NCBI GenBank assembly: GCA_964036295.1 | Contig: OZ038464.1 | Location: 26,144,508-26,208,507 of the forward strand | Direction: 5' to 3' | Length of the DNA: 64,000 nucleotides | Origin: Plumapathes pennacea | Lineage: Eukaryota > Cnidaria > Anthozoa > Antipatharia > Myriopathidae | Shown here: piece after piece, positions 37,342 to 62,340 of the stretch | Position numbering within the stretch: the stretch's first letter is position 1 | Layout of the letters: each line of letters begins with the position of its first letter | Notes under the pieces: model-generated | What the model was told of the DNA's origin: nothing | Database searches by the model: none | The model's input: the letters and a program-made list of their open reading frames with translations, nothing else | Made by a program: the position numbers and the translations under genes

Positions 37342-40300
37342 TTACGCAAAAAAAAGATTGCTATGAATTCGATGCTCTTTATCTGAAGCCTTGGCGAGGA
37401 TTCCCCTCATAGAACGCCCCGGATTGGATCCAATCAGTTGTGCCAGACGAAGAGTGTATTCCGAAGGCCTGGGGAGAAAAGAGTGGGCATATCAGTCAAT
37501 CTTTACGTTTATTCATTCATTACGGCCTTCTTCTTGTGTATACACTTACTTAAATCAATCACTCACTTTTTAAAGTGTACTCAATACATATTATTAGTCG
37601 TATTCTGTTATCCGATATTTATTTCATACAGAGATTTTCTATATACTGGCTTTGCAATACCTAGCCCCTTGCGTCATGTAGTTAAGTACAGCTAACTCAA
37701 CTCGACTCATCTTCTTTTCTGTCTCACTACCCCTCGGTTAATTACTCAAGCTTGTATTTCAAAATTCCACTGACCGATCACTGTCTCTGGCGCATGGCAG
37801 ACTTAGCAGACACTCCTGCGGAGCGATCATGTCAGCAAGACCTCGCTCACAGCTGGTTTGAAGGTCATCATCCACCACCAAGAGTTTGGGCTGCAGGGAA
37901 AAAACACTCTTAAAGAACTGACAGAAGTTGACAGGCCGTTAACTGGGGATGTGTTGTGCTTGTTTTCAACGAAAACCCTAACAATTTCTCGTATAGCTCG
38001 ACACGGCAACACCTGGTATCATGGCACGAAACATAAAAGGGCAAGGAACATCCTGGTATCCAATAAGTCAGTTATGACCGACGGCAGATATAGAAATCGC
38101 CTATAATGGCGGTCAGGATACTTACCCCATTTACGAGCTCGCACATCAGGTCCACTATCCACTGCACTGTGAGGTTGTTAGCTGGCAAGTCATCAACACC
38201 AGCAAGGACATTTTCTCCATTATTCGTCTGCAGAAGAAAACAAAACAAAACAAACAAACAAACAAACAAACAAGACAGTTGTGATATGCAGAGCAGATGT
38301 CACTGCGGCTTACTGATGGATGCTTTTTTCGTTATTATGTCTTACGACAAGTTACAGAACATTCTTTGTAACGTTATTTGCTGTACCTCTGAACATATAT
38401 ATATTTTCTGGTGGCGAGCTACGAGTTAGTTCTTCTAAACAAATCTCTGGAAATAGCTTTGCTATGTTTTGCTTTTATGAAATGTGTATGAGCTATAACA
38501 GTTGATGGTTTGCAAAAAAGACGTCACTGCCATGTTGGAGTTGCTACTCAGTTACAAAAGAAGCTAATGCCCTCCATGACGTCACATGGAACAAATTGTT
38601 CTTTCCAAGCGCCTTATAAGGTATGTGACGCACTCGTGACGCACCTGAAAGGCCGCACCAATGAAATAAACCATGACCACTTTCATATCGGGACCAGACA
38701 ATTCCTTGAGTCTGTCACGCAGTACTGTCTTCATACCTTCGCCTGAAAGGTTTTCGTGGTTTTCTGCAAAATAAAATTATGGACAACCACACGGGATAAA
38801 TTCCACTGCATTCATTCCGAACCTCGATCGGCTGAATATAACACCGATTGTGTTTGTATAGCGTTTTAAAATTGCATGCCGACCCCTTTCTTTACTGACT
38901 CAACCTGGTCAATGTCAGTCGTTTCCTCGTGCTGACATTTCTACTGACTGAATCTCACGACAAGTTGATTCAGCTGACACCTTGTGGACGTTTTTGCGTA
39001 GTTTTAAAGGAGTGCTGACTAGCCGTGAGTGCTCCGAGGCTGTAGAGGAATAGTTTGAGTAACTGTGAAAATCGTCTGGTTATAAAACAGCACATCAAAG
39101 AATTTCAGAGAAATATAGTTTTTGAAAAGCAAGGATCGCTCAACGGCTGAAGCTATATCGACAAGCAAACTCTCATTTAAAAACCTTTCCTACAAAATTG
39201 TAACCTCAGCCCTCAAATTGTTATGCATCGCTTAATATCGTTCTTAGTAGCATCCTTGAGAAGATACCTGCAGTCCAGTGAGCATTCTCCAAGGAAGCTG
39301 TCAGATGGTCTGCGTGAGGTGTCTGCGGGCCACCCCGGGAAATGGCCAAGATTATTGCGTGGCGTGGAGTGCTATGGTCAGGAGCCCGTATTCCAGAACC
39401 TGAAACAAATAAATGTTCAGAAAGTATGCCAACAAGGAGAAAATGTAGCCGGTAACTCTAAGCGAAACTAGCTCATGCATCCAGGTTTGGTGCGCCACAG
39501 TTTACCCTCAAAAGAAGAGTAGTTTGGAAGTCTGTCTAAGCAACTACTCTGAACATAACACTGGCCGGCCTACCTTCCTCTGATGAGTTGAAGCAAAATG
39601 GCAGACCGTTGCGGACAAGGGAATATTCTACTGGTGGACTGGACGCTCCTAAATTGTTCATATCTTCCCTTATTCGTTTGAATAAGTCTTCCACCGACAG
39701 GTTCTCAGTTTCCAAATGCTCGGTCAGGCTGTTGATGTAGCGGCTGCAGCAAAATGAAAGCACGTTAAGTAGGGCGCCCATTTCCCTTGCCCCTTGACTC
39801 TAAAATCAAGATGCATTTAGTTCAACTGTGCCGTTTGCAACGACGTTGTGCAATGTCGAAGAGTGGACAAAATAAAAACTTACAGTCGTTCTTCAGCAGT
39901 GCGGATAGTGCCAGGCCTGCATGAATAAGCCACGACCATGTTTGGCGGCGGAGACACTGGTGCAAGGCCTTTCAACACGGCTCTGCACTGGAAATCCTGT
40001 ACGCACTCGTGTGCTCCATCCAAGAACACCACAGAAAGCTGAAAAAACAAACAAAAAACAACAAAAAACAAAATATTTAAAACTTCTTGCAAGACGATTC
40101 GACAGGCAGATTTATATCGAGAATAGTGCGACATACTTTTTTATTTGTTTTTATTTATTTATTTTGACACAAGTCTATTTTTGCAGATACAGTTTGTAAT
40201 AATGTATACTAAATATCAGATCATACAAAATCAGTGTAAAAAGCTAATAAAACAAATTAGGGTGGCGAGGAAGCCTAAAAGAAACATAAAGCTTATGAAT

Positions 40301-43300
40301 TTTAGGCTTGCTGATCAAGCTATAATATTACATTTAAATCTAAGGAATAATTGTACAGAAATGGAAAGCTATTGGGGACACGCTCATTGTTCAGCTATGA
40401 CTGTACAGCACTGTGTTATTAATCACTTATTTTGTCTTCAGAATGAAGCAAAATAATTATTAGAAGTCAGTGTACCAAAGCAGTGAACACCACATTTTTA
40501 AAATCTAAACTTGGAATATCCCACACGCTATCCAATGGTTTTTGTGCGGCTTGCCTCCGTCGACGCTCGCGAAATAAAAATATGTGTTTGTTGCCGATGT
40601 TGTTGAACAGCTCTAACAAAGACCTCAGGCTTGAACCGTCAGGCAACATATTCACGGTGTCTAGTATATTACGTCTGTAGATACTATCATAGACCCCCGG
40701 TACTTACACGGGAAGTCCTCAGACTGGAGATGAGTTGATTGACGTTCACAGAACACGCCACTAGGTCTGCCTTTGTCATATCTGGGTTGACGTCCGTTGG
40801 CAGTAAGAAATTTACTCCATTCATCTGCGAATATAGAGGCAGTGTTAGTTTATATCAGGGCGAATAATAATGCTGCACGCGCTTTTAGGATAGTCTGGGG
40901 TACAGACCCTTGTAGCAGCCTTTTTTCAACAAGATTTGTAAGTAATAGTCACTATTATTGACTGACATGCTGAACAAGAATGCAATAGCTCTCTACACAA
41001 AAGGTGATAGTAAAGAGCCGGCGAAATCATGAGCATGAGACATTGAGATCCAAATATAGACTAATTCTGCGGTCATTTAGTTGGCAGTAGTTCTTGTACA
41101 TCTCCCGCCGGCTCTTTCATGGTCTCAAAAGTTGAGGATTTATGAATCAAATCCCGAATGTTCGATTTTGATCTTGAGTTTCGAGAACAAAAACCTAAAC
41201 ATGTTAAGTTAAACCGTCTACTTTCTTTACTGAGAAAAGCATCCTTACATGGACTGTATGCCCAACCAAGTATACGAGGCAAATATTCCCTTCGCTGCTA
41301 TCCACAAAACTCTGAATCTCATTATTTAGTACCACAGAGGAACATTCTTGCCTGCCCATCCTTCTTGTGACTACAGAGAAGAAAAGAAGAGAAACTTATC
41401 CATGGTCAGTGTCTAATAATACGACAAGACGTAATCTTCTAACTTCTTCTGCCAACTTCTCTGACTAGTACACAGTAATCACTTTATACCTCTCCAGTCA
41501 TCCATGTCTAGTGCATGATGCAGCCTTTTGATGCTCCTGGTAAAATTCTCCAAACTGTCAAGGTTCTCATATCTGAGACAACCAATGATAAGGGCCATTT
41601 TGGAAACGCCTTCTGTATCCGAAAAACAACGCAGGCATTATACGGTTACTATTTCATAGATAGATGCGGAGTACGCGCAACTGTTGACGCCATTCGAACA
41701 CAAGTTGACGCATTGAAGTTTGCACATCACTGATGTACCTGTCAGTGCACTGCTTGCCGTACATTTGCGCAGCGCCAGTGCTGTTAGCATGTGCGTGGCA
41801 CCTACACTGCGGGGCACTTTTGAACTCATGCATTTGAACATTCATTTTGTAGGCGAACAAGTAACTGGGTATGAAATGTTCTTACAAACCGAGATCATGA
41901 TTCAATCAGATAAAAGAGTTCTGAAAGGCACGTGCATGCACAAACTAATCTAATTTAAGTAACTAAATTACTACAAATAATAGACGTATGCTGCCATGGG
42001 CCGTTAGAAGTTCACGTTATTTGTATGTGTGATTTACCATCAGCCTTACCCCCATGGATATCACCATCGTTATCTGAAACTTGCAAGTCTTCCAACCGTT
42101 CACTAGTCATGCTTTCACTGTCATCCACACTCTCTTGAACGGGGTTTTGAGCGCCAGATTCGTTTCCCTGAAACTTTGGGTCTGTTTCCTGCTGCGGTGT
42201 CGACGGAGGCTTGGCTCCCGTACCATGTGGCGACGAGTTGTGAAAACCTACAAATGGAGATTTATGGTTTATGGTCCTACGCGGTCGTGCACGCCTATAC
42301 GATCTTCCACGCGATTATGGCATGGCAAATTGCACCCGGCTTAGAACCTCGGCCAGAGTATATACGCGTCATAAAAAGAAGCAAACAGAAATGTACTAAA
42401 AATAACTGGCCACCATCGACTTGATAATTTCACGTTGAGCGTAAAAATCGTTTGACGATCGTTGATGTTTGATCGTTGGTGAATAGTGATCCCATTTAGC
42501 ACTGACATAATTAGCATTACGAACAAATATGGGTAATGCCAAACCGATTGGCATAGTAAAGTTGCAAGACAACATTTTTACCTTTATCTGGACTGGATGT
42601 CTGGACTGGATGGCGAGCTGTATCATCTCTTGCACATTTTGAGGTTTGATTCTGATGCGGTGACAACAGCTGTGGCTCTGATTCTGCAGCTTCCAATTCT
42701 GAAACGGTCTGTGTCACAACTGGTGAAGGACGAAAAATAACGAAGAAAAATACAACTACGACTAAGATTACTGTTGTACTCAGCCAACCATCCCTCTTCC
42801 CAACTAAAACATCCTTGAAGAATACAAAAATACTATAGTTTTGGGAGTGTGTGTACGTAGTGTAAATAGAAATGTGTTGTGCTGTCAGGCGGGTGATCGC
42901 TACACTGGTATTTACTTTTTCACATTTAGCATAGTTACCAGAGATTTCTTCAGTGATGTCACCATCATTACATTCCTCATCTGTGAAAGAAGAAAGGTCT
43001 GAATCGCTGACCAGGTTAGCTTTCTTGAGCTCATCAATCACGTCTCTTCGATCAACCTCTTTACTGGCGAGGAATTCCACAAGATCTCTGACGTGCATGT
43101 GTTTATGGATCATGGTTTCAAACAGACCATCCATCTTTTTGTCCTGCTTTAAAGTATTTGTATCCTCCACACTTAGTTTCATACAGCCAGCGATTGCGCG
43201 CCAATCTTTTCTCAAAGCATCTTCCACATTCAGAAGTTTAACAATGCTTTGGTGAACGTGTGTGGGAATATCCTTCAGCAGCGTATCTGATGGTAGACAA

Positions 43301-45286
43301 ACAAAGGACAACACAATAAAATCTCGGAAACAAACTCAAGCTTAGTTGCACTTGCACCGGCAAATTTGAACGTCTTTTTAATTTAAACCGTAGAACCACC
43401 TCAGCTTCAAAATTACGATGCTATAATTTATGCAGATATAATAGTATATACAGTGGACTATCATCAAAGTGCGACAAAAAATTTATTACCTAAAGGGCCG
43501 GATCCGTACTAGACTGTTAAATTAAAAGCACTGACTAAGCATTCAGAAACTAAAATTTGACGGCTTCTTCGTAGTTTGGTAGCAAATCATCGACACATTT
43601 GACCGCTATTGCCGTTATTAAAGACAAACGTGCGCAAGTTGAAATTTACTGTGAGGTTAGGTTCATGCTCTCCATAAATAGTTGACGTAACCCTCACGCC
43701 ATAAACTAAACTGGCAAACTTATTTTTGTTACATAAAATGATCGTAACTATAAGAGTCGATCTTTTTCTTTAATTTAGCAATATTTTTTACTTGATGTAC
43801 TCACTTATCCCTGGAGCTTCATAGCCATCATTGGGTGGTTGCTGATATTCTTGGTGTTGATACATTGTGTTGCTCTGTTCACCCGTTAAACCTGTGGATC
43901 CTCTTGCCACAAACTGGTTGCGATCATGTGGAGGGCAACTTACAGACCGTCCAACAGCACTGGGATGCAAATCTGAAATATTGAATAGTATAATTTTACC
44001 CACCTAAACTTTACAGATCTCCAGTTCATCCCTTCAACCACCCTTGCACGGCCATCCAGTATGCAGTTATTTTAGTATCCATCAGCTTTTCTATCTGATG
44101 TTTCCTTGCGTAAATTGGGAACTTTGTTTAGAAGTAAATATTTTCAGAGACATGTTTCAAATTCCACTGTGATGTACAGTAACACGAAAATTTACATTTG
44201 TATACAGTTTGCAAAAATGTTTATATCCCTGATATTGTCAGTCATGACATAAATGCGATAGGACTAAAAGTTAAAAGCACTTTGTGGCCATTTGGGTTTA
44301 ACTAAAAAATTTACAAACCAAATATTGTTAATCATACCTCCATCGGAATATTATCTGTAGTAAAGGTTTGCTCCAAATATTTGGTCAGGAAACTATCTAC
44401 AGTACAGTCAACGGACAGATATACTGTGCAATCAGAAACCCGCGGAACATTCCGTTGTAATCATAGAAAACTCAAGTGAGACTAAAACAAAAACTAATTT
44501 CTCCGTGGCCATTTTTTTTATATACCTACAAGTTTCTTTCTTCACAACACTATTCAATAATTGAAAGGAGTCATATTGATATAACAAGAGTCCACAAATT
44601 AATTTTACTTGTCAATCATCAAACAAAGGTGGGCTAATTCCTGGAAAATCGAGTGTGTGCGTCCATATTCGTGCCAAAAATGAAATAAAGCGTAACATGA
44701 AACTAAAATATAAAGTTGCAATTGCGTAATTGCTGCGGGATTCGTCGCACTAGGAACTGTTAGTCGATAATAACTCAGCATCGAGAGCAATACGACGGTT
44801 TCTTTAATATTTGGTAGCAATTTGCTCGCATATATTTCTGGTGACACTTCAAAGGTGCATATTAATGTTGTTAAAGTTTCAATTGCAACAGGAGCCTAAA
44901 ATGAAGTTACTTCTAGATTAAGTGTACGAGAAACGGTAAATACCTTGTTCCACCGTTAATTCTGACTGTTGTCTGATGGGATGCCCTCTCAATCTGGCTT
45001 CTTCTTGTTCCATTTCGGTAGCGAGGTCGTCGAGTTTGTGCTGCGAACTTCGCAAGGCTTTTACAAACTCCTTGTATACTTTCGGTCCTCTTTTCTCCAA
45101 TAACTGAACGAGCACTTGTGATGCTCTAGCGGGGCCATGGCGGTCTTTTTCCCGTTCAATCAATTGCCGGTCTGAATCGGGGAAAAATTTTACTAGGGAA
45201 ACCCCGACCATTACTTCTGGGTTGGTCAAACTTTCGACGATGTTTTTCGTCTTGTTGGTCAGCACTTGGCGATGAATCCCTTCCAT
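37342..45286 (-). CDS. CARD / death-domain / tandem caspase-like pseudoprotease, paralogue B
   Basis: No described gene recognised. Fifteen GT-AG exons (high to low): 45286-44944, 43972-43805, 43286-42939, 42719-42582, 42247-42050, 41612-41490, 41370-41249, 40824-40708, 40038-39884, 39743-39574, 39399-39268, 38763-38645, 38227-38126, 37890-37775, 37468-37342; in-phase total 825 aa. Order: CARD-like (about 1-100), death domain (about 172-265, with KDWRAIAGCMKLS), linker with STPQQETDPK, caspase-like domain 1 (about 395-625) and domain 2 (about 640-825). Domain 1 has MALIIGCLRYENLDSLENF, LVYLVGHTVH (His477), NFLLPTDVNPD, VVFLDGAHEC (Ala528 where Cys is expected) and VVAYSCRPGT, best matched to MALT1-type paracaspases. 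Domain 2 has HAIILAISR, VYFIGAAFQ and LLVVDDDLQT, lacking both His and Cys. No signal peptide or membrane segment. Likely a cytoplasmic signalling scaffold; function inferred. ATG at 45292 is an alternative start. Confidence 0.85.
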
Positions 45287-45399
45287 TTTCACTCGTGCGG
45301 AGAACGCGAAATGCTAGGGCAGGTGTTTGGTGTTTGACAGAATAAAAATCTTGTAACTTTCAAACAGATAAAAACGTACGCGATCGAAGCACTTCTACT

Positions 45400-45600
45400 T
45401 GCAGGTTGACAGTCAGATATCTCCCTTGTTGTGATGCTATCGCCCCCGCGTTCTCTCTTCTATAGCCGCAAATGACATCAAACTCGCCTCTAAAATTAGT
45501 AGGGCAAATCCCGGGGTAAAAGCGTTTCGTGACTCGTTCTGTTTACTGAACCGTAAACTTCCGGTTTTCCGGGAAACGGCGGTAAAATCACCTTGTCCCC
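45400..45600 (-). promoter_or_regulatory. conserved upstream region of paralogue B, with a Rel-like palindrome
   Basis: Blocks shared with the paralogue A upstream region in the same order: CTTGTTGTGATGCT, ATCGCCCCCGC, ATGACATCAAA, TCGCCTCTAA, GTTTCGTGACTCGTTC and ACTTCCGG (ETS-like). GGGCAAATCCC at 45502-45512 corresponds to GGGTAATTCCC in A; both are GGGN5CCC, as in some Rel/NF-kB sites. The conservation is seen; factor binding is inferred. Confidence 0.5.
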
Positions 45601-46619
45601 AGGGCCTTACGCGCGAGAAAAAATATTATGAAGCAAAATTATTCAATTCACATAGAGACAGAGTCCGTTTGTAGATTCACAAGATTTTATTTAGCAGGAG
45701 AAAAACTATAGTATCCGTTCTTGTGTGTCCATCATATTATGTGCGTACTATTAGTGTCCCTTCTATGTTACTTTAACCTATGAATTAACCTGCATAAAGT
45801 CTTCCGCGGGTGCACTGGATGGGCCCCACCTGAGTCATTTTCAATGTATGTTCCACATAGGTTGTTCTGTTTTGGTCGAAATAGGGCATCGTATGTTTTA
45901 AGACACTAAACCCACTGAATGAGCAGTGGCTATATCGTTTGAAATACGGGAAATATCAGTCATGTCTGGCCGCATGCAACTACGCTTGAGAAAACAACGT
46001 GTGACTTTCAAAGGCATCGGAGCTGCTTATTTAAAGAAATAACCCTGACCAAACGGATTCGATAGTCAACTCAAGTCAATCCAAGGTTTCATTTTGCCAG
46101 TCAGTTTGACAGTCACCACATATCCGGACGTAAATATAATTTGGTCGACTCACCGCAAGGGCGGTTGGTTCAAACAACAATGTTTTGAATATCATTGAAC
46201 CATGGAAAGCTGTCGCAATTGATGACGTAAATAAGAGGAGTATTTTCCTTTTTCTCTTTCGTTCTATGCTGGACGCACCTTCTGCCGCTCCAGTGGCTTT
46301 TTCACTTTTGTTGGCGATAATTTGCCCACTTTTCTTGGCTCAATGCTCCAGGACTGTGATGGAATTCTGTTCTGCTACTAAACATTTTGACCAGTGAGAG
46401 TAACCAACTCCTTGATTCTCTTATTGTTTCACGAGAGAGATATGTCATATAGCTAAGAAAAGAAGACCTTTGTTATCTCACTTAGATAATATGAAAACTC
46501 AGTGGACTATCAACTCTCACTGCAACAACTGCCATTCATGTTCTCAAAATGTTGGGAGAATTTATACTTCTATAAGTTCGCGAGTAGTAGGGTTAAATCT
46601 TTGCACAACGTAATGCACT

Positions 46620-46860
46620 GGGCCCGGTTTTTCAAAGCACGATTAGGCTAATCCTGGATTAGGTGTAAACTTTCTTGTCATTTATAAGCCTGAAAATGTG
46701 AAGATTTTGTCCTGCAACGATTTCCTTAATACGTACTCAGCTAAAACAAGCTTTTTAATCCATATTTGAACAAAACCCTGCATTTTATCGGCAGAGAGGT
46801 CGTCAGAAAGAATTTCGTTAATCCTGGATTAGTTTAATCGGCTTTCGAAAAACCGGGCCC
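46620..46860. mobile_element. 241-bp inverted-end element (MITE-like)
   Basis: The left end GGGCCCGGTTTTTC is repeated inverted at the right end (GAAAAACCGGGCCC). Subterminal CTAATCCTGGATTAG palindromes occur on both sides. No coding capacity. A related half-copy (AGCCTAATCGTGCATGCTTT) sits near 55845 in a paralogue A intron. Confidence 0.7.
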
Positions 46861-47280
46861 TGATGTATACTTAAACGCGAAGATTTGTCTAGTGCATGTC
46901 ATGAAACTTAGTTCTGATGCATACGTGTTTTGGGGGTGTTGCTTGCCACATCTGCAAATTATGTATGCCCCGGCTTGATTCCGTGTGTTCCTTTTTTTTT
47001 CGACGAGGTTCCGTACATATGCGATTTATTCAATCTGAAGTAGCATGTCCTAGGTTGTGACGTATAACTATGGTCTGATCAATTGTTCAAAATGCGTGGT
47101 GGGGGGACCTTTATTCAATGTGAAACACTAAGCCTACTATTTTAAGTAATCTTTGCATTAAGTGGCAGCAGTAGTGAGTGCAGCCGTATTTTTACTCGGA
47201 TAACGATTAATCTAAATAACAGACTAAATGCAACCAAATTGGATCAAGACACTTTACAGGGGAAGTGTCATGAGATGCAC

Positions 47281-47461
47281 ATGCGCGCGCGTTGGTCGAA
47301 TCTTTAAACATTCGCCGAATGTTTTTAAGTTTGAAATCCAAGACGGCGTCCACAACGGCGGTGGATCTGCCGCTCGACCGCTCGCGGCCGTTGTGGACAC
47401 CGTCTTGGATTTCAAAGATTTGGCAAACTTTTTCAAGATTCGATCAAACGCGGGCGCATGC
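47281..47461. repeat. large imperfect hairpin
   Basis: The left arm contains GAAATCCAAGACGGCGTCCA and CAACGGC; the right arm contains GCCGTTGTGGACACCGTCTT followed by GGATTTC. Outer CATGCGCGCGCG / GCGGGCGCATG words also pair. This looks like a folded inverted-repeat element of about 180 bp. Confidence 0.6.
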
Positions 47462-48326: not shown

Positions 48327-48327
48327 T

Positions 48328-48366
<39 letters not shown>
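48327..48366. repeat. (AAC)n microsatellite
   Basis: About thirteen AAC units, with more interrupted copies to about 48400. It lies just downstream of the paralogue A stop codon. Confidence 0.9.
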
Positions 48367-48367
<1 letters not shown>

Positions 48368-48533: not shown

Positions 48534-50026
48534 TCATGCAAAGAAGAGATTTCTGTAAATTTGGTGCTCTTTACCCGAGGCGAAGGTGAGAATTTGACTT
48601 ATTGAACGGCCTTGATTAATTCCAATGATTTCTGCCAGACGGCGTGTATAGTCTGGAGACCTGGGGAAAAAAACAAGACATATGCTGTGAAACAGATCCT
48701 TTATGCGAAGTATCCCCCATTCATAAACGGTCCGAGATCTCCTCATCTCCTCAGCTGCATGGGGGGTGAGGGGGGTGCTCTAGTACCACTACACTATATT
48801 GCATGGAGGATGTATCAAATGCTGAATGCCACGAATGCGTTGACTGGCGTTAATTCTCAAAACAATGTAAATAACATTTCTCCTAGTAAATAAAATGTGT
48901 GTGCATTCACTACAGCAAATTTCCATGAGCTCAGCTTCGTCACTCAGAAACCTTTAGTCGGTCATCAATAATTATACTCACTTATTAATTCAGTATCTCA
49001 ACGAATACAGTCACTCGTTTAGCCAGTTACTCTCTCACGCATACACACTGTACATACATCACACTCATGTATTGACGCACTCGCTCAATCTCTCGCCCAT
49101 ACTGACCGATCACTGCAGTCACTGGCACGTGGTAGACTTATTAGACACTCCTGTGGGGCGATCATGTCAGCAAGACCTCGCTCACGGCTGGTTTGAACGT
49201 CATCCACTACCAAAAGTTTGGGCTGCAAAAAAACAAACAAACAAACAAACAAACAAACAAACAAACAAAAACAAAAACAAAAAAAACATGCACTCTTAAA
49301 GAACTGACAGAAATTCCCATCTTTCCCATTTTGTGATCAAAATCGAAATGACCTTAGAGGCGTCCATAGGGTGCAAGGGAGTTCGCTTGCTTGCCATTAT
49401 GAAACAAGTATGTATTTGCGCGCCCGCGATGTAATCGTTCTGCGGTATCGTTCATGTAAGTCAATATATAGGGTTTTACACAATGGAAAGCAAGCGAACG
49501 TCAGCTTACCCCGTTGATGAGCTCGCACATCAGGTCCACAATCCACTGCACGCGCACATGCGAACCGTCAACGCCACTAGCAAGGACGTTTTCTCCACTC
49601 TCAGTCTGGGGAAAAAATGGTACACGATTTTGGCCAGTGAAATGAGATGAAGTGTGTTCGGATATGAAGTTGCTTGCTTTGAGACAAGCGATTGCGTTGT
49701 ATAACAGCTATAAAATACTGCAATGCATGCATGACCTAGCATGACCCACCTGAAAGGCCGCGCCAATGAAGTAAATCATGACCACCTTCAGTCTGTGATC
49801 GGACAATTCCCTGAGTCTGCGACGCAACTTCGTCTTTATTTCTTCGGATTTTAAATTTTCATGCTTTTCAACTGCAAAAGAGTAACTATATGTTAGGTAT
49901 ATCCAACATTTACCAATAACATGCTAGTGAATTGCATGTAATATATAGGAAATACATAAGGGCTGAGTGGTTTCCCTGCGCTACTCTCGCAGAATTGCTG
50001 ACATAACCCGGACCTTCCTCCCCTCC

Positions 50027-50060
<34 letters not shown>

Positions 50061-53000
50061 GCCTGGGCTGCCTGTCAGTTTGACTAAGACAGAATATTGC
50101 AACAATAGCCTATTACTGTATCAACTATGGAGGTTGTACCAAAAAAGAACTTCGAACAAGCACTTTGGAAAACAAGTCACTTTCAACAGTGCCGAAAAGC
50201 TGATTTTGACCCTGTGGTTGTCTCGACAAGGGTGGTAGTTACCTTGAAACCAGTCGTTTAGGCCTAATGACGTCCTAAGATCCTCTGCAGAAGTCTCGCT
50301 CCCGCGCTGGGAATTAGCAAATATTATTGCATGTCGTGACGTTTCAACGTCCGGACGTTGAAGTCCATCGGAACCTGAAAACAATTAGTATAGGTAATCG
50401 CATGATTTCAAGTGTAATTTGGAATAAACAAGACAGGCCCGTGGCCAGTGCGCTTGTGACGTCATTAGTACAATGAATAGAGACACGCGGGGTCCCGGGA
50501 GAGGAACTTTTGTCGTGCGTTTATATGCAAAAGATATTATAGCCGAGTCAGTTTTTGCAAATGACGGATCCAAGAGCTCCCTTTATTTTTCTTGCCCTCT
50601 TTTCTTCTAATTTTGGTCAAACAGATATTCACGAAAAAGTGTATTATAATAATTGAGAGAAAACAATTATCGAAGGCCCCGTAGGAATATTCTTCGTTTG
50701 CAACAACCCAGTTTTCATTGCTTTCCGATGCACGTGACAGTACTTGTATGACGCTTTCTATACAACCTGGCAACCTTGTTGAGTGAATTTTCAAGCTGAC
50801 ATGTTTTGTGGAGGAACTGTGTTGTCATTTTGTAATGGGATTGACTGGGGAATACCCGACATCTTAAGTAGCTGTAAGACAGCGTAATAGCCTTATCTCA
50901 TCTTCCCAGCGTGTGCATCATGTTCAAGTAGCTGTAGCACATTAAGGCCCCGTCCACACTACGCCGGATAAATTTGAAAACGCAACTTTCACTCTGAAAA
51001 CGCAAGAAATGTTTTTCGTCCACACTGGAAAACGGATAAAATGTTTCCGGGCCCAAATGTATTCTTATTGCTCTACAAACGTCCCTGACAATCTTTGAAA
51101 CCACTTGACGTGACCACGTGAGTCAGGGTTTTCGAAAAGTTCCGTTTTCAAAATGTTTTTCGTCCACACCAAAACGCAAAGCCGGCGCTTTCAAATTTAT
51201 CCACTTTGAAGAGCGTTTTCCTAACCGTAAGAATAAAGTTGCGTTTTCAAATTTATCCGGCGTAGTGTGGACGGGGCCTAAAAAATGACACTTCCCATGA
51301 TGAAATTACTTCGTATGAAAAAGCCATCTCAGACGTTACGCATCCTACATGTACAAGTCTGATCACTAATATGTTCAAGACTGCTATGCATTAAGCTTTA
51401 ACGCAAAATTCTGGGTCGATACGAAATTAATCTCTATCGGAAGCTGCAGACGTTTGAATACCGTGACAACAAAGGCGTGCATCACGGGCTTGTGGAGCGA
51501 ACATTACGGCTCGGATAGTCGGATATCAACCTTGAAGACTTCGAGGTATTCAGTGACAAATATTCTCGATGTAATCGCCTGCCGGTCTTTCCTGCTTTTG
51601 TTAAAGCGGCGTGAGTGAAAGCTAAGTAGCTGATGATTCGGGATTCCCCGTTCTATGATATTATGCTCGTGACATTTCATTGACAGATCTTGTATCTTAA
51701 TCTCGCGTGATATTTGCCTCAATCCTATTAGTAATTCAATATCCTCAGACAATAAACAAAGAACCTTTACTGCACGCAAAACGAAGTTAAACGCCGACTG
51801 TTCGTATACGCCGCGCGTTACACAAAGCCGCAGAGTTTCCGACAAAGGGAGACGCTCTGCCCGCAGGGAAAAGTTCAAGTTCTATCAAGTTTCGACACGT
51901 CTTCTACTACTTATTCGATGTTCTTTTACACAAATATTGCTCAGAACACAGATACATTGGTTGAAGCGGTATCTATAATCGAGCATTTGCAAAACACAAC
52001 CCTTCGTACTTTACGGGGGTCCCGCTGGTTTGGGTACGGCTATTTTCAAGTCTTCCGACGCTTAAAAACAATGCAAGCCAAAATCGCTCCTAAAGTATGG
52101 CTTCCGTGCATCCAGAAAGCCAACCGATGATCGTTTTGTTTGGATCAACAACTGAAGGACCGGAATTTTTTTCTATATCCCTTGACAGAGAAAACCCATT
52201 GTACTTGGTTCTGTGATTTTGATCTCTGAATACGTCTGATCTTGCAATGCCTGTGTTTTAACACATTTTAAAATACAAACGTATCTTAGCACCTCGGTTA
52301 CTTTTGGCAATCTTCTTTTTGAGCTTCTAGCTTTCTCGCAGCGATGGTTTATTGATCCTAATTTTCTCTTTCCATTTCCATCTGTGGCTTTTTATTGTTT
52401 CCATGTTGTTTACATGCACGTTCACGGAACGCATTAGCATTGTGAAGTACGTAAGCTCGGGTATAATCATGAACTTTTGACGACTTTGGGACATTCTTTG
52501 AAATGTATTCTTGTATTAGTCGCCTGCTTTTTCTACTCTTGTTCAAAATGCGTGAAAGGTAATTCAATGGTACGTGGCTTGGCTCACGACTTCGTCTTGG
52601 AGGACTTCGGTTTTCTTTCACATAAACATTTATGGGAATACAATAAAACTGAGCGAAGCAAGATCTACCAACGGTCACTTTTTCCTCAGCCATTTCCTAA
52701 TTTTCAAATAATAACGCCATCTGTTCCACTGATTGTTTGACCTTCATGGCACCGAGCCAAAATCTCGCAACAACAACATAAATGCACGCAGAGTGAAATT
52801 TTGATTCCAAACAAAAGTCAGATTTTCTGACGCTTTACTTGTATCAGCAAGAATAATACAAAGTAAAAGAATACAAAGTACCTTCAAGTTCACCCTCATA
52901 CTAAACAGTTCCATATAATCCGCTATCAAGCGCTTGTCAAGAATCGCCGTCTTTACACAGGTTCTCGTCTTTGTATCTCGAGCGCCTTCGTTCAGCTTGT

Positions 53001-56000
53001 TCCTTCAAGTTCTCAAGGTTCTGGATATTAGGTTCTTCGTACATTTCTGTACAGTTGTGCATAGTTATGCAGTTCATTGATAAATTCATTGCATTTGCTT
53101 TCATGGCTTTCAATGTGGCTTTTGAGGCTGAACGGACCGACCCAAGCCAAAACCGCTCAATGAAATTTAGTATGGGTCTACCGCAGCCGGCGTATGCGTT
53201 TGTAAGTAAGATGAGCGGTCCATAAAATAATCCACACAGCCAACTAAGGCAAGCAACTTGCTGTCTTCAAAATGGCGAAACTGCTTGCTCGACAAGTCAC
53301 GTGATCACAACGTCATCACAAATCACATGATAATATCAACCAATCATCGCATGCAGATCTCTAACCCAGAAAAATAAAAAAAAATAAAAAATCGCTGCAT
53401 TTTATAGCTTGTGACGTCACAAGCAATTAGCACGAGTAAATTTTTCAAAGACCACAAAATTGCACGAGCGCCGCGCAAGTGCAATTTGTGGGTCTTTGAA
53501 AAAAATTACGAGTGTTTATTTATTCCAAAATTGCACGAGAAATCATGTGATTACTTGTTATTAACATGCATTCATGCAATAATTTACGTTGCGCAAAATT
53601 TTTTTCAATTTCGTTACAATTCACAAGCGACGCTCAAGAACTTTGTTTTCTCGCAAACAGAATCGGAATCGTCCTGAGGAATAAAAACACGCCCTTTTGT
53701 TTTGTTTGGCTTCGCCAGCAGTCAGCAATTTTAATTTCACATTTCTGCACTGTTAATTTCACATTTTTGCACTGTTTGGGATAAATTGACGTGCGCTCAG
53801 CCAATCAGAATGCAGAAATTATTGTATGCATGTTATTATTTTGATAACAGGTCTTCCAACAGGGTGGGTCCTTATAACACACCACATCCTGATACACAAC
53901 AAACACACCATAGCACAACACATGCTGATCAAATTTGTGGTAAAGGACAAAATAGTGAAATATAAAGTACAACACAGTGTACAGCTCACAGCACAGAACA
54001 AAACAAAACACATAAAAACTGACACAATTCAAAATAGCACAAATATGGTAGTAATACCTTCCTCTGGTGGGTTCAAGCAAAAAGGCAGACCGGAACGAGT
54101 TAGCGAGTACTCCAGTGGAGGACTGCACACCTGCGTCTTTAGTTCTTCCCTTATCTTTGAAAACAAGTCTTCCAGGGACAGGCCCTTGGATTTTAATTGC
54201 TCGACAAGGCTTGTGATATAGTGCCTGCAGGAAGAAAGGTGTACAACTAGACTACATGCAATTTTGCAATGGACAAAATTGTTGGCTGTAGGTTAGTGCA
54301 CCGTTTCCAGAGCACGACGTGATATCATCGTTTTGCTATAGTGTGTGATGTGGAAGATACCACGTTCAGGGCAGAGATAAATAGTGGTAATAGGACTGAG
54401 TGGAGTCCGATTTGGTTTGTAATATTATGCATACAATAATTTCTGCATTCTGATTGACTGAGAGCAGGTCAGTTTATCCCAGACAGTGCAAAAATGTAAA
54501 ATTTAACAGTGCAGAATTTTGAAATTGAAAATGATTGACAGCTGAACCACACGAAACAAAATGGCTGACAGATTTGACGGAACTTATTGTAAGCATGTTA
54601 CTCGCGCTTGTGCAATTTTGTGGCCTTTGAAAAATGTACTTGTGCTCATTTATTCCAAAATTGCATGAGAAATCATGTGACTATGCCTGCAATAACAAGT
54701 GAATTGCATGTACTAACATATTAACTCGTTTACAGTGGGTGATTTTGTGGTGTGGCTGGGAATAGAACGGAAGCGTTTGGCTGCAGCCCAGTCAAAAAAA
54801 AAAAAACGAAGCCTCAGCTAGTACTTACAGTCTTTCTGTTTCTGGACGAACGGTTCCAGGTCTACATGGGAATGCCACAACAATGTTTGGCAAAGGAATA
54901 ACAGCAGAGAAGCCCTCCAGAACACCAGCAGACTGGAACTGTTGCGAACATTGGTGTGCACCGTCCACGAACACAAGTGAAAGCTAAAAAGAAAAAAATT
55001 CACCTGCATTGTCGCATTGTTTTTTCTACGGTTTTTCTTATGAAGATTTGTGTTTTCTATCACAAAGGAAACTTAAGTTACTTTTAACGTCATCCTTCCC
55101 AGAGAAATTGCCCGGGGTTAGTGGTTGCGTGCCGAAAATCGGAAACAACAAGCGAATATGAAGTGAACGTCTGCCAAGCTCGACTTTATCAATTATTCTG
55201 ATGGACTTATGCGTCGGCTGTGGTATATATACCGTGAAGGAATTTACACTAGGTTTTGTACAGCTGTTTTGGCTTGAGTCAACTGATTTGGTGTACATCT
55301 CTACACAGACCTACACCTGCATCCCTGTGCACAGGTGAGATTCAGAAACTCGTAAGAACTTGAAGCCACAGGAAGCTGTGCACTGAAAAGTCGTAAACGA
55401 CTTAAGTTTGAACGCGATGGTAAAGTGACCCAAACCACGTGTCATCTGCCCGAACAGTAACAGCACTGGACGCAGTACAGATACTTTTCACGCGGTGTTC
55501 TTAGTGATCTGCTATCATCTGTCTTTATGATTCGGATGTATTACAAGTAACACATTGGTAAACTAGCTATTTAGTACTTACACGGGACTGCCTGCTCAGG
55601 CTGGAGATAAGTTTGTTGATATTCACAGAAGCCTCCACGACGTCTGCTTGGGGCATATCAGTCTGGATGTCAGTTGGAAGGAGGTACGTTTCTCCATTTA
55701 TCTGGAAACGCAAAGAAGTACGACCAAAGATTGATTGATGTTTGATTTAGCATAATGTATCAATAAGTTCTTTTGCATGCAAAAACCCCTCATTATAGGC
55801 TATAAGTGTCAAGAAGAGTTAAGACCCGCCCCAGCCCAGGATTTAGCCTAATCGTGCATGCTTTGAACAACTGGCCCTGAGATACAGCTCTTGATCGGCT
55901 TCGATTATTTAAAGTTTTTTTAAGAAAACACGGTGCTACACTTTTGCTCTCTTACCTGGACAGTGTGTCCAGCCAAGTACACCAGGCAAGCCTCGTCCTT

Positions 56001-59000
56001 GCTGTCGTCTATAAATTCCTGAATTACACGTCGTAGTGCTGTAGAGGAACAGCCATCCTTTCCACTTATTTTTCTAATGACTGCAAAAAAGGTAGCAAAA
56101 CAAAGTTGTTTAGAGGTGGAGTAAAGCTGAGATTCAGCCAATGTAGGGGCGGTTTGAAACGGGCCCAAGTTACGATTAGCTTTAACGGCCTGCTCCAGGA
56201 CGCCAATATTTCACATATCCTACCAGCGGTATTTTCTCTTCCATACTATATGTGGTGGTGAGTTCACGAGTTAATTGTAATTCTTCATCTACTAGTACTT
56301 CTAATCCAAACCTGGTTCCCACTCGGCATCATCCAGAACATGATGCAAGTCGCTTTTGATGATTGGTTTCAAATTTTCCAGGTCGTCAAGCTTGTCATAT
56401 TTGAGACATCCAATCAAAAGGGCTCTTTTGGAAACGTTCTCTATCAAATAAGCAGCAGCAACAACAACAACAACAACAACAACAAAACAGTCAGTGAGAT
56501 GGCTTTCTATGCGCGACTAGTTTTAATATAATGTGAACAGAAGAACAGAGAGTTCCGATTAGTGCACTACAAATGCGACTGCTTGGGAAAGTCAGTATTT
56601 CTTGTTAGCAATTGTTGATTAGATCTCCTCGCCATAAGTAAACCACTCTTGACCAACCAAAAGCCAACTGGAGGTTCACTTACGAGAAGAGACCACAGCG
56701 GTTTTCGGTTAATTTTTGTAAAACTAAAACCAAGCTAATTTACAAGAAGGCATCGTGGCCAATCACACAGGAAGTAAGAACTAAGCAGAAGGCACAGTCA
56801 TTTGCGATTGGTTTACTTTTGAGCCTGTGTACAGTGCGGCGAGAAATGCCATTGGCACCCGGTATTTTTTTTGTTCCAGATTGGCCAATAAATGTCAAAA
56901 GCGCAACAAACGCAAACACTAAAGCTTTTCACATTCATCTGAAAACGGCTCTAAACGCTATTTGTACTTGCTCCCCAAGATCTGATTTACGCTTGCAGTC
57001 CTGATTTTATTACTTTGGATAGTCAGGGCCCTGGATCGAGAGGTCAAGAGTTGGACCCAAGCCTCCCTCCAACCTTTCGCCCGCCATTGCTCAAAAATGC
57101 TTCTTGAGAATCGATCCCTGACACTTTATTGAGTGTGCTTCACGGGACAAAGGAATTGATAACTTCAAGGAAGCCCTTGGGACAGTGTGCAAAGCGTCCG
57201 CTAATATATGTATGAATGCATAGTGTCCAATGGTAAACTAAAGGTGAGGTATACATCATAAATATATACTCTAGCAGATGCCTATGGTACAAACGGGGTC
57301 CAGTGCGAAACTATGGGGCATGCACCATATATACCAACTCACAATGGCTCATCACTGGTGACATTACAAAGCAAAATCCTCTACATTATGATGTAAAGTT
57401 GCATTGTAATGTAAATGATTCCTTTGTGATGTCATTTATATATTTGCCTTAGTTTATATATGCCTGCTTCGAAACCGTTGCAATGAAAGTGAATTTGGTT
57501 TGCATGAAAATAAACTTGACAGCTAGTAAGAAACAAAAAATACTAATTTCATACAGTATATGAAGAAAAGCACTGACTGAGGCAACAGCTGATACAGACA
57601 ATTTATCGCAATATTTTGCGAAACTCAATCAGTTGAAGTTAACATATTTTCGACCAGCAGAGTTGTTTTTTTGCAGACAAAAAGACACACAAATTGTCGT
57701 AACTTTTCTATGTGAGGGCTCTGCATTGAATCTTAAATCAACATGTAAACTAGACGACAGAAAGATGACGGAAAAAAGAGATGATCACCAAAGGAAATTC
57801 CCTCACAATATCTCTCTTCCAGAGGCTTAATCTTTGTCTCTCTGTGTCCAGTGTCTTTAACACTCACTCTGAAGTTTACTCATTCTTTCACTCACTTGCT
57901 TAATGGTCTGAATCGACTTGGCAGAATATATATGCTTGACTTTGTTTTAATTGGTGCTATCTACAATAATTTAAATCTGTACTGAAAAGCTGATGACATG
58001 ATTGGAAGATGAGTCATTTTTTTAAAGAGCTGAGTGAAATCAAAACCAATGTTGGTTGATCCTTACCTTTGTCCTCATCAGATTCCTCTGGAATCTTCAA
58101 GTCGTTCAGACACAGTTCACCACTATCTTCATCATCCTTGGGATTGTCTGTTTGGACAGGATGAGTTTCAGAAACCCCACAGTTTTTAGCTGGGTTTGTG
58201 TCCTGTTGTGGTACTGAAGGAGGCTTATCTCCTGCACTTCCTGGAGACAATACATTTGCTTTATCCTTGGGATTGTCTGTTTGAACAGGATGAGTTTCAG
58301 CAACTCCACAGTTTTTAGCTGGGTTTGTGTCCTGTTGTGGTATTGAAGGAGGCTTATCTCCTGCACTTCCTGGAGACATGACATTTGCTAGAAAGTGAAT
58401 AATAATTGCCTAGGTTCAGACATATATTCTGGGAAATCCATGTGTATATACAGTGAACTCCCTCTGGACCAGCTCTAACTGTCCACCTTGGAGAGCTGGC
58501 ATCTGATATTTATCCATAAACTTTACAACTGAACAAGAATGTTAACAGCCAGGGCAAGGATGATTAAATATTTATGACTCAACAATCTCCTTTCATTCTG
58601 AACACACAGTCCCTGTAAGATTTTTATCTGATCTGTCTGCTGATGCACGCATGCATGATGCTAAAGCAATAATATTATTTTGAAAAAGTGTACATTCTTA
58701 GTATCTGCTCTGGGGGTATTTTTATCCAAACTTTTGCCAGTTGGCACTGGAATTCTGCATGAACCACGTAGAAAAAAAGTCATCTCATAATAATTTTCAC
58801 AGCTAGCCTCTAAACATGAACAAGTTTATACATTTTACACTGGTTTTGCATACAGTGTTACCTTTATCTGAACTATCCTGTTCGACTGGATGGCGTGCAG
58901 TGTCATCATATTTCCCAAACTCTGGATTAATTTGTTCTTGCTGTGGTGATGATAACGTAGATTCTGCAGCATCTTCAGATGGGGACACCATGTTCAGTGA

Positions 59001-62000
59001 AGAGGCTCCTGTTTCATGATTTAATGCATGGTCATTTAGTTCATAAATGTTTGACAGTGGAGATAAACCACTTCCATTGTAAGAAAACAAAATAATGATA
59101 ATGATTATTGACCTGTATGATGGTAAACTCTAAGGTGATGATGACAATATTATCAGGGGGGGTTTGTTTGGGCAGCTATTAAATAAATGGAAATAAAGTA
59201 ATACTTGGGTTGAATCCCTCTATTTATGGCTGCCATTATTTGACTGATACAAAATTATAAAATCTAAAATTTTTAATCCAGAAAATTCACAGAGGAATTA
59301 TATAATAATATATTATTATTCATATTATAATGTTATTTAATATGTTCAAATTTTTTTGGTTACTGCTCATTTGAATCTGAACATCATCAGCTTAATAATA
59401 TTGAGACCAGATACAGTATATATACCTATGAATTTTTTTAACTCACTGAGTGATGGACCACCAAGGTTAATATATAGCTACACTGATTAATCACAATGTT
59501 GTCAAGTATTTAGAAAATATATAAACTAGAGACCTGACTTAAGCAGTGCTACATGATGTACATTAAGCCACTGCAGTTCCTCACCTGTTAAAGAGTCTAT
59601 GTCAGAATTCGTCACAAGGCCAGCTGTCTTTAGCTCTTCAATAATATCCAACCTCACAACGTTTTCATCAACTAGAAATCCAACTAGATCTTCGACGCGC
59701 ATGTTTTTATGGATCATTTCTTCAAACAAACCTTTCATCTTATCTTGGCTTAAAGTTTTGATGTCACTAGCACTTAGCTCCATGCATCCAGCAATTGCCC
59801 TCCAGTCTTTTCCCAGAGAGTCTTCTGCACTCAGTGATCGAATGATGGTTTGGTAAACAGATCCAGGAATGTCCTTTAAAAGCATATCTGGTGACAAACA
59901 ATAGCTGTTATTGCAGAGCTAGGTCATTGGTTTGACATACAAACGAGACAAATGGGTCACTTCAGCATTGTATTGATCCAAAAGACTTGTTTGCATCCTT
60001 CAAAAAACAAAAGAATATTGGACTGCAGGCTCAACTGCAATATAACAGCTATTAAACATAGGAGAAGTATTGATATTCTGGTACATGTATTTTAAAAAAG
60101 CAAAATAATAACTGCCTGGAAAAATTGTCTTGAATAATTCTAGAAACTGACATCAGTAACATTCCAAACACTCCATACATTTAGTATAATCTGGGTGAGC
60201 CTACTTAATGACTCTAATATGTAAAAAAAAAAAAAAAAAAAGTGTAGTGTAGTGTAAAACAATTAAATATTAGAAATCCTATTTTATATGGGTTAGTTTG
60301 GTTTCATCATTAGATTTGAATAATAATAATAAACTGATTTCAAACAAGTGATATATACCATAAAATCCAGGCTATAAGCCCTGTAAGCTTGTGAGATTCT
60401 ATATGGGGTATTCAGGGTGCTTTCATATGTGGGTTAAAGTGTTGCTTTAATATTCTTATCTAGGCTGGGGCCATTTCAGCCACTAGTAGGGGGAATGAGC
60501 AGGACAAATCTGGTTGAAATGGCTCCAAAAAATCCACCTAGATAAGCAAGAGACAGACAAACCATGTCAGTGTGTTCAAGTTTTATTTATTTTTTTTGTA
60601 AAAATCTTGTTGTGTGATGGAGTGAAATCCCCATACATTCTCTTATAAATCCTAATTGCCATTAAGTTGCACCTGCGGACTTGAATCATTCTCAAAGATT
60701 GGGCTACTTGTGTTTTTTGAACCAGTGACACTCACTCTAGTGTAGCACTCTAGTGTATCATGTGTACTCACTTATTCCTGGGGCTTCTGCTTGTTTTGTG
60801 GAGTTCACTCCTCTGTTTCTGTCAGTTTCAGTTTGCCGCTGACTTTCCTGTGGTCGTTGAGTTTTAGACTGTTGATTGGTTGGAGCACCTCTTGCCACAA
60901 TCAGGTCAGGTCGAGCAAAATTATTTCTTGAAACTACAATGGGAGGCAAATGTCACAAAACCAACGACTTAATTGTGTTCTGACACTGATGTTCCACTCT
61001 TTGTGATAGTTTGACCATGCAGTATTGTAATCTTTTCCTTGGTCAAATTAGTGTGATTACTGGGCATATTTTATTGCACCAGGGACTCAGAATTCTGTTT
61101 ATAAATATACATAACTGAGGTCTTAAAATGTTTAACTAATAGGAGTAACTAAACAATAGAAGATTAGCAAATACTGGATGCATATTTCCCTGGTGATTTT
61201 TCTGGATAACTGTATTATCTATCAGGGATGGTTGTAGAATTAGATGTGATTGAAGTAAATTGAGCATTTGGAAAAACTGTATTAATAATCATGATAATAA
61301 TAACCCACATGTAAAAGTTTGGGTGAGATTGTGTTTTTATTTTGTTTTCCTAATATTTATTGATTTATTTTTTCTCTCTATAGTCCATTTTGAGCATTTT
61401 GGATGTAGTTTGCAGTGTCAAAGTGCAAACTAATCTGTAAGTAATACATTCATAATAACAATAATCTTTATTGTTAGCTTCAAGCCTGTTCTTGTTTTTT
61501 TTTCTTATATTAAAGCAGGAAATTTCAGGAAGCTCAAGTAGGTATCTCAAATCTTGGCCGAGCAAAATTTGGGATAAAAAAATATCAATATAAAACTGCT
61601 GAAACTTAGCGCGGCTGCAGTATTAAACAAACAACAAAACAAACCAGAAACAAATTACGACTAACGTTGAATGGTGCATGCACCTGTCAATCATGGGCGT
61701 CGGAGTTCCGGGAAAAGCGACCTTCGCGTGGTTTGCATGTCCGAAAAGTAGGGAACAGCTAGAGCTTTATAATATTATGAATTGTTCGATTGAAACATTA
61801 GGAGCTGATGAAAGTGCCTCCCGAGTAGATCCATGCATATCACGTTTGATTTAAACTCTAAATTGAAGGACCGTGTATATAAATGACTTTGACTTCGCTT
61901 TCTTTAAATTTCTTTAATCTAAATTCTTAAATTGTATTGATCTTCTCACCCTTCAACATACTTCCATCAACTTAAAAGCGGGAAATACCTGATTCCGTTT

Positions 62001-62340
62001 CCGCAGTGTGTAAATGAGAAGCTTCCGATCGGTGCACTCCGCTCAGTCTCGCCTCCTCTTCTTCTATCTCCTTAGCTAAGTCCTGCCTCTTGTGTGTTTG
62101 GCTCCGCAGAGCCTCCACGAACGCCTCAAAAATACGTGGCCCTCTCTTCTCCAACTTGCCAACGAGTACTTGGTTTGCCCTAGTAACTCCAAAGCGATCA
62201 GCCTCACAGCTAACTGCTTCCTTGTCTGAATCCGTCAAGTATTCGGCCAGAGATACTCTAGCCATCACAACCGGCTCGCTTAAATTCTCCACTATTTGTT
62301 TTGTCATATTTATCAGCACTCGACGATGAATGTCTTCCAT
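48534..62340 (-). CDS. CARD / death-domain / tandem caspase-like pseudoprotease, paralogue A
   Basis: Same architecture as the gene 3.2 kb downstream, in the same orientation. Fifteen GT-AG exons (high to low): 62340-61989, 60933-60772, 59887-59585, 59008-58862, 58387-58067, 56440-56312, 56080-55956, 55701-55582, 54983-54829, 54224-54058, 50374-50243, 49871-49750, 49605-49510, 49222-49107, 48660-48534; in-phase total 857 aa. CARD-like MEDIHRRVLINMTKQIVENL on (about 1-100); death domain about 173-262 (KDWRAIAGCMELS); linker with a duplicated unit; caspase-like domain 1 about 430-660: KRALLIGCLKYDKLDDLENL, LVYLAGHTVQ (His510), ETYLLPTDIQTD, LVFVDGAHQC (Ala562 at the Cys position), VVAFPCRPGT; domain 2 about 661-857: RHAIIFANSQ, IYFIGAAFQ (Ala742 at the His position), KLLVVDDVQT. 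Much longer introns than paralogue B because of inserted repeats. The exon 4 acceptor (CATGAAACAG) is weak. Probably a catalytically dead signalling adaptor; function inferred. Confidence 0.85.
49227..49290. repeat. (AAAC)n microsatellite in paralogue A intron 13
   Basis: About ten CAAA units directly precede the exon 14 acceptor on the minus strand. Paralogue B has a similar short (AAAC)n run at about 38239-38272, but in intron 12. Confidence 0.85.
50029..50058. repeat. poly-C run in paralogue A intron 11
   Basis: About 30 consecutive C, flanked by CCTCC words. Confidence 0.9.
50945..51279. mobile_element. 335-bp inverted-end element (MITE-like) in paralogue A intron 10
   Basis: The left end AGGCCCCGTCCACACTACGC continues through CGGATAAATTTGAAAACGCA. 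The right end is its inverse over roughly 45 bp (TGCGTTTTCAAATTTATCCG then GCGTAGTGTGGACGGGGCCT). The interior again uses GTTTTCGTCCACACT-like words. No coding capacity. Confidence 0.8.
51504..52693 (-). other. two unassigned open frames inside paralogue A intron 10
   Basis: Minus-strand open frames at 52693-52358 (111 codons) and 51878-51504 (124 codons) share an Asn-Lys-Ser-Arg-Lys motif (SRILNKSRKSRR and SRRFNKSRKDRQ). I recognise no family. They could be remnants of one inserted gene or retroelement, or chance frames. They lie in a 3.7-kb intron whose counterpart in paralogue B is only 174 bp. Confidence 0.2.
53431..53835. repeat. about 400-bp interspersed repeat, copy 2 (reverse)
   Basis: The reverse complement of the 32556 repeat: it ends CAATCAGAATGCAGAAATTA then TTGTATGCATG. 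It begins with a hairpin whose arms are TTCAAAGACCACAAAATTGC and GCAATTTGTGGGTCTTTGAA. It lies in paralogue A intron 10. Confidence 0.6.
54424..54700. repeat. about 400-bp interspersed repeat, copy 3 (shortened)
   Basis: It starts ATGCATACAATAATTTCTGC ATTCTGATTG, as at 32556, and ends near GCATGAGAAATCATGTGACT. It sits about 600 bp from copy 2 in opposite orientation, within paralogue A intron 9. Confidence 0.55.
56454..56485. repeat. (AAC)n microsatellite next to paralogue A exon 6
   Basis: About ten AAC units sit 13 bp upstream of the exon 6 acceptor on the coding strand. Confidence 0.85.
58138..58387 (-). repeat. in-frame tandem duplication inside paralogue A exon 5
   Basis: Two adjacent units of about 129 bp, nearly identical, each encode a 43-residue linker with MSPGSAGDKPPS or LSPGSAGDKPPS, PQQDTNPAKNCG and ETHPVQTDNPKD. 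Paralogue B exon 5 has one unit (AKPPSTPQQETDPK). The second copy therefore arose in A, recently judging by the few differences. Confidence 0.85.
60222..60241. repeat. poly-A run in paralogue A intron 2
   Basis: About 20 A followed by GTGTAGTGTAGTGTA. Confidence 0.9.

Follow-up and report, generated by a model that had tools for sequence, protein, structure and literature searches.

Tandem CARD and death-domain genes with two predicted pseudo-enzyme folds in the antipatharian Plumapathes pennacea

Two neighboring genes with a predicted fusion of death-fold and protease-fold domains

A stretch of 64,000 nucleotides from Plumapathes pennacea (Cnidaria, Antipatharia; assembly GCA_964036295.1, contig OZ038464.1, forward-strand positions 26,144,508 to 26,208,507), called "the window" here at its full length, contains two adjacent genes, A and B, predicted to encode an N-terminal CARD-type domain, a death domain (DD), a long linker and two C-terminal protease folds, of which the first resembles a paracaspase. 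At a probability of roughly 55%, we read the two genes from their sequence as paralogs with a RAIDD-like front and a duplicated fold lacking a normal dyad, whose products would serve as CARD/DD-assembled pseudo-paracaspase scaffolds or regulators and not as proteases.

Both models are predictions, reassembled from the sequence alone via conserved reading frames and splice sites (aa, amino acids):

48534..62340, minus strand: gene B, whose 15 coding exons give a protein of 857 aa in the order CARD, linker, DD, linker, pseudo-paracaspase 1, pseudo-caspase fold 2
37342..45286, minus strand: gene A, 15 coding exons, 825 aa; domain order as in gene B

The genes lie head to tail on the same strand, 3.2 kb apart. 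The chosen frame is open in all 30 exons (an alternative frame in just three), all 28 introns are of the GT-AG type, and intron phase is identical between the copies in 14 of 14 cases. The two proteins share 49% identity in a full-length alignment (BLASTP, 892 columns) and 55% over 796 gap-free codons. The rebuilt models bear out the initial annotation of this DNA, which had described two 15-exon genes of 825 and 857 aa in head-to-tail arrangement, joined at GT-AG sites with matching phases, and we regard these predicted genes as confirmed. Its domain order of CARD, DD and two caspase folds, distinct from that of MALT1, is likewise supported.

Two protease folds without a normal catalytic dyad

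The C-terminal half of each protein is encoded by two blocks of five exons:

54058..56440 (56440-56312, 56080-55956, 55701-55582, 54983-54829, 54224-54058), minus strand: gene B exons 6-10, pseudo-paracaspase 1
39574..41612 (41612-41490, 41370-41249, 40824-40708, 40038-39884, 39743-39574), minus strand: gene A exons 6-10, pseudo-paracaspase 1
48534..50374 (50374-50243, 49871-49750, 49605-49510, 49222-49107, 48660-48534), minus strand: gene B exons 11-15, second caspase fold
37342..39399 (39399-39268, 38763-38645, 38227-38126, 37890-37775, 37468-37342), minus strand: gene A exons 11-15, second caspase fold

The caspase folds that had been proposed for this region were found by profile search: Pfam Peptidase_C14 matches two stretches per protein (67.8 bits in A and 67.7 bits in B, cut-off 21.4), and domain 2 also matches it on its own (27.6 bits in B, E 1.2e-6 in A). 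The domains were further compared with a paracaspase profile, built from a MALT1 fragment and the four MALT1-like loci of this genome (L055, L056, L057 and L058, 43-51% identical to the human fragment), and with a caspase profile built from five of eight caspase loci (L001, L002, L004, L006 and L008; L003, L005 and L007 were left out). Domain 1 scored 27.5 bits against the paracaspase profile in both A and B, versus 0.5 and 0.4 bits against the caspase profile, and domain 2 scored 11.6 (A) and 6.6 bits (B) versus 5.8 and 11.7 bits. When a profile of domain 1 was run over the MALT1 fragment, four caspases, two further C14 proteins encoded in this genome and 700 shuffled sequences, the MALT1 fragment ranked first with 14.5 bits, the next entry reaching 3.6 and the best caspase 3.2; in the PDB the same profile had the MALT1 paracaspase (3v4o) as its sole match at E<=1, and a weak one (E 0.13). 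The domain 2 profile returned no PDB match at E<=1. Domain 1 is, on the strength of these scores, paracaspase-like and not caspase-like. The earlier description of the C-terminal half as two caspase-like domains thus holds for the presence of two such folds, and the paracaspase nature of the first had gone unnoticed.

Active-site residues were numbered by manual count on the predicted proteins. Of the GHG motif of MALT1, domain 1 retains the His (H477 in A, H510 in B) but has Thr in place of the Gly that follows it, and the gap-free profile alignment shows Ala instead of the catalytic Cys (A528 in A, A562 in B). In domain 2 the His position is taken by Ala (A708 in A, A742 in B), and the Cys position by D754 in A and V786 in B if counted from the conserved Asp, or by S758 and S789 according to MAFFT; C759 of A adjoins the latter position, and B has Arg there. 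A normal His-Cys dyad is found in neither protease fold of A or B.

Probable duplication of a five-exon cassette and constraint on the folds

The two folds of each protein share much of their intron arrangement. Domain 1 (exons 6-10) and domain 2 (exons 11-15) are each preceded by a phase-1 intron and interrupted by introns of phases 1, 0, 0 and 2. The first internal intron falls two residues past a Trp in each domain of B, and in the domains of A the distances are one and two residues. With the Gly of the His motif as reference, the second intron follows exactly four residues later in all four domains. The third, too, has the same place in all four, residue seven of the exon behind it being the conserved Asp, and at the fourth the domains agree in phase only. 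Domains 1 and 2 therefore match in all four phases and, as to residue positions, in three of four introns in B, and in A in two exactly and in one with an offset of a single residue. Because the phases 1-0-0-2 are shared and three of the four introns stand at matching residues, internal duplication of a five-exon cassette would be the simplest cause of the paired folds. In sequence the resemblance of domains 1 and 2 is weak and far less clear than in gene structure, with an hhalign probability of 3.3% and a best BLASTP E of 0.015. Over the approximately 125 residues that span the first three introns, the MALT1-like loci L055 and L056, which lie on different contigs and look closely alike, have no intron, L057 has one and L058 two, the first intron within this span being of phase 0 in the latter two. 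Exons 2 to 5 singly, and exons 6-10 as a block, are units of phase 1-1, which would fit shuffled modules.

A search of the genome for further double domains, of limited depth because the exons are short, scored 25 candidates, and all 19 matches at E<=1 fell within genes A and B. L058 was considered as another double paracaspase and dropped, its extra piece resembling the C-terminal part of the same domain when set beside a stretch of MALT1.

Comparison of A with B (NG86) gave ratios of nonsynonymous to synonymous change (dN/dS) of 0.22 for the DD, 0.29 for domain 1 and 0.31 for domain 2, versus 0.63 and 0.47 for the linkers, with dS between 0.84 and 1.39; for the CARD dN was 0.34 and synonymous change was saturated. 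The DD and both protease folds are, by this estimate, under stronger constraint than the linkers, which argues against decay and, for the protease folds, speaks for a function that would not need a normal catalytic dyad. That A and B are decaying duplicates, with dead active sites as marks of pseudogenes, is accordingly very improbable in our view: catalytic residues have been lost, and a degenerate partial copy with a stop does exist at C1:9846715, but every exon of A and B is open, every intron retains GT-AG borders, and dN/dS values of about 0.2-0.3 in the DD and protease folds stand against 0.5-0.6 in the linkers.

The death-fold front and its relatives

The first five exons of each gene encode the death-fold domains and the linkers:

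61989..62340, minus strand: gene B exon 1, CARD-type death fold, aa 1-118
44944..45286, minus strand: gene A exon 1, CARD-type death fold, aa 1-115; CARD_2 E 1.2e-4, below cut-off; 53% identical to B
60772..60933, minus strand: gene B exon 2, linker
43805..43972, minus strand: gene A exon 2, linker
59585..59887, minus strand: gene B exon 3, death domain, aa 172-273
42939..43286, minus strand: gene A exon 3, death domain; donor uncertain (42938 used)
58862..59008, minus strand: gene B exon 4, linker
42582..42719, minus strand: gene A exon 4, linker
58067..58387, minus strand: gene B exon 5, linker, contains in-frame tandem repeat
42050..42247, minus strand: gene A exon 5, linker

In both proteins the DD-like fold is preceded by a CARD, unlike the N-terminal DD of a type 1 paracaspase, and no affinity to the DD of MALT1 was seen among the matches listed. 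Matches of the DD profile to AMPK gamma and XRCC4 were judged to be chance, as were TT0907 and cofilin in a full-length search in which MALT1 did not appear. The region from the DD to the protease folds is by sequence a linker rich in Pro, Gln and Asp; scanning the two complete proteins against Pfam at E<=10 listed no Ig domain between DD and protease and no DED family, but CARD_2 and two C14 stretches instead. In gene B this linker is lengthened by 43 aa through the second unit of a tandem repeat in exon 5 (58134-58389, in-frame unit of 129 bp or 43 aa, 2.0 copies, 95% matches). The TRAF motif PxQE occurs twice in the linkers of A (shuffle P 0.004) and once in those of B (P 0.09), for a wider TRAF2/3 motif the counts are two in A (P 0.16) and one in B (P 0.46), and a TRAF6 motif is present only once, in B (P 0.25); since three motifs were tried on two linkers, we make no claim of TRAF binding.

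Searching the 290-Mb genome with exons 1 and 3 revealed gene C (C3:26288450-26289830), about 80 kb past the end of the window, in the opposite orientation on the same contig. Its CARD exon is 30% and its DD exon 47% identical to B, the two are predicted to join at a phase-1 intron and the DD exon to end in a stop, and both domains score above their Pfam cut-offs (CARD_2 34.9 bits, Death 30.1 bits). No caspase-like match was found around it with A and B as queries (tblastn, E<=1, three 10-kb pieces). Gene C is thus predicted to encode a CARD-DD protein of RAIDD-like order close to the fused genes. The initial annotation had overlooked this nearby CARD-DD-only paralog, as well as the probable cassette duplication indicated by matching intron phases and positions and, being silent on catalysis, the lack of a normal dyad in both caspase folds, where the alignments show Ala at key positions.

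RAIDD (CRADD) itself consists of a CARD followed by a DD, an order that gene C has exactly and with which A and B begin. Profile searches list the RAIDD CARD as one of several weak matches (E 0.11), and A and B are longer by about 550 residues holding the two pseudo-enzyme folds.

Further relatives of the front exons are scattered over the genome. A second copy of exon 1 of gene B lies in a 791-bp block (L027 5416-6206, G000:C3:6.24 Mb) that is 94% identical to window positions 61891-62676 and covers the upstream region, the exon and the start of intron 1; its exon passes CARD_2 with 32.2 bits, and no convincing match to other exons of B was found in two 10-kb pieces there (L027, L028), the one match of 25 residues having an E of 0.49. 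The degenerate partial copy of B's CARD exon with a stop (G000:C1:9846715-9847054; L029, L030) has, some 2.5 kb away, a 154-base match to intron 2 of gene B that may be a repeat. A DD exon akin to those of A, B and C was located at G000:C3:24806778-24807047 (L031; Death 38.7 bits); by eye it adjoins an apparent proteasome subunit gene. As a separate observation, G000:C6:3277127-3288719 contains at least four tandem caspase genes, each split into matches to model positions ~4-60 and 66-233. A Pfam C14 search of the genome, with 30 matches listed, missed both A and B, so that family searches there overlook genes with short exons. The GFP family gave no hit in this genome and none in 14 controls either, and thus carries no hint about the host. 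In a protein database, full-length B (7,995 candidates) and four CARD exons (943 candidates) had no match at E<=0.001, a result that says little about distribution since the collection may be poor in spliced animal genes.

Weighing the evidence for a proposed scaffold or regulator

Several results weigh against a pseudo-enzyme scaffold with a CARD-DD front. Of the Pfam profiles checked, Peptidase_C14 alone was above cut-off in A and B, CARD_2 (22.5 bits in A and 25 in B, cut-off 28.2) and Death (13.8 and 16 bits, cut-off 22.6) remaining below, so that the initially proposed front stood the profile check less well than the protease half. Fold models of exons 1 and 3 were of middling confidence, and although CARDs and death domains top their Foldseek lists, no match reached E<=0.001; families absent from the VIA-align listings of these CARD and DD fold comparisons were not treated as excluded. 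The junction of exons 3 and 4 in gene A is uncertain as well, AT standing at the site of B's donor; the model uses a donor at 42938, 42 bases beyond that site, and intron 3 (219 bp) is stop-free in frame, such that it might be retained. The main result against a dead domain 1 is that MAFFT, by opening a gap, puts C531 of A and C565 of B, three residues on, at the catalytic Cys.

If the front were misassigned at that junction, each copy might consist of two wrongly joined gene units: exons 1-3 would encode an adaptor of CARD-DD type, and exons 4-15 would form a separate gene for the double pseudo-enzyme. Gene C, as a CARD-DD gene with a stop in its DD exon, would provide a model for the former, and this junction is the weakest one in A, where the frame runs open through intron 3. 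However, the junction phase is common to both copies, the exon 3 donor of gene B is strong (score 6.9), and the open intron 3 of A continues in frame into exon 4, so that even retention would join both parts. We consider such a separation unlikely.

The Cys placed by MAFFT raises the question of catalysis, for which a coral protein offers a comparison (sources are cited by PMC identifier). Caspase-X of Acropora contains a tandem pair of caspase folds, one of them without His and Cys: the first domain is dead and the second has active-site residues, and two relatives in A. digitifera carry a glycosyltransferase domain (PMC4715348). In A and B no domain has the normal dyad, the first is paracaspase-like and a CARD-DD stands in front; caspase-X is a partial precedent. 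In a reversal of its order, domain 1 would still be an active protease that uses the kept His and, as its nucleophile, a displaced Cys (C531 in A, C565 in B), and domain 2 would be the dead regulatory half. His and the nearby Cys are indeed kept in both paralogs, but the gap-free alignment has Ala at the Cys position, the shift requires a 3-residue insertion directly after the strand, and Thr stands in place of the Gly after His, which makes an active domain 1 quite improbable.

Type 1 paracaspases have a DD-Ig-paracaspase structure conserved since Cnidaria, with typically several paracaspase paralogs in cnidarians and one type 1 copy in bilaterians, and MALT1 has a scaffold role besides its protease role (PMC5978004). 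A and B share with them the DD before a paracaspase fold and the MALT1-like domain 1, and differ in the additional N-terminal CARD, the lack of a detected Ig domain, the presence of two protease folds and the missing normal dyad. A natural CARD-DD fusion protein that selection maintains, with the protease fold present twice and a normal dyad in neither copy, would separate the protease and scaffold roles of MALT1.

CARDs and death domains assemble through like-with-like contacts, and the MALT1 paracaspase acts as a dimer. In the scaffold reading that we favor, CARD and DD would bring A and B into homotypic assemblies with further death-fold proteins, and the pair of pseudo-enzyme folds in one chain would form a dimer-like binding platform that recruits partners without cutting them; in an alternative step the pair could compete with the MALT1-like paracaspases of this genome. 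Gene C and the MALT1-like genes would be candidate partners. More tentatively, A and B may represent a new class of death-fold proteins, namely a CARD/DD-nucleated scaffold in which a covalent pseudo-dimer of dead MALT1-type folds serves as docking platform or decoy and which is maintained by selection in tandem paralogs.

A related possibility is a decoy in the manner of c-FLIP (CFLAR), in which the pseudo-enzyme pair would heterodimerize with an active paracaspase or caspase and inhibit or retune it, instead of working as a scaffold on its own. The death-effector domains (DEDs) of c-FLIP are arranged in tandem. Like A and B, c-FLIP combines death-fold domains with a dead caspase fold; it is the model pseudocaspase, with DEDs and a single pseudocaspase domain that has the fold of caspase-8 (PMC11121540). 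Neither protease domain of A and B has a normal dyad, and MALT1-like paracaspases and many caspases are encoded in the same genome. Yet A and B carry two C14 folds, and CARD-DD in place of DEDs, any partner is putative, and the dead domains, being joined in one chain, could bind each other so that neither is left for a partner; we hold this decoy role to be doubtful. A and B would present pseudo-paracaspases parallel to pseudocaspases such as c-FLIP.

Unusual combinations of such domains have been reported, with new death-fold combinations in amphioxus caspases (PMC3196919) and, in largely sessile marine animals, TRADD-N proteins of lineage-specific architecture (PMC8195603). The titles and abstract openings covered by our literature search contain no description of a CARD-DD protein with two inactive paracaspase folds. 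The nr database holds unverified predicted proteins with several caspase domains, often together with a CARD or DD (PMC4715348), and the architecture of A and B may thus already sit unremarked among them.

Other genes in the window

Minus-strand exons at 7952-10867 belong to a protein kinase (the one at 7952-8293 scores 131 bits for Pkinase), which we label CDK-like by eye from a PSTAIRE-type stretch at 10244-10450. A phosphatidylinositol-phosphate kinase exon is found at 26355-26618 on the plus strand (PIP5K 65.9 bits), and the open reading frames at 25089-25331 (no Pfam match) and 27445-27768 appear by eye to belong to the same gene. An INSIG exon is located at 34868-35446 on the minus strand (51.3 bits).

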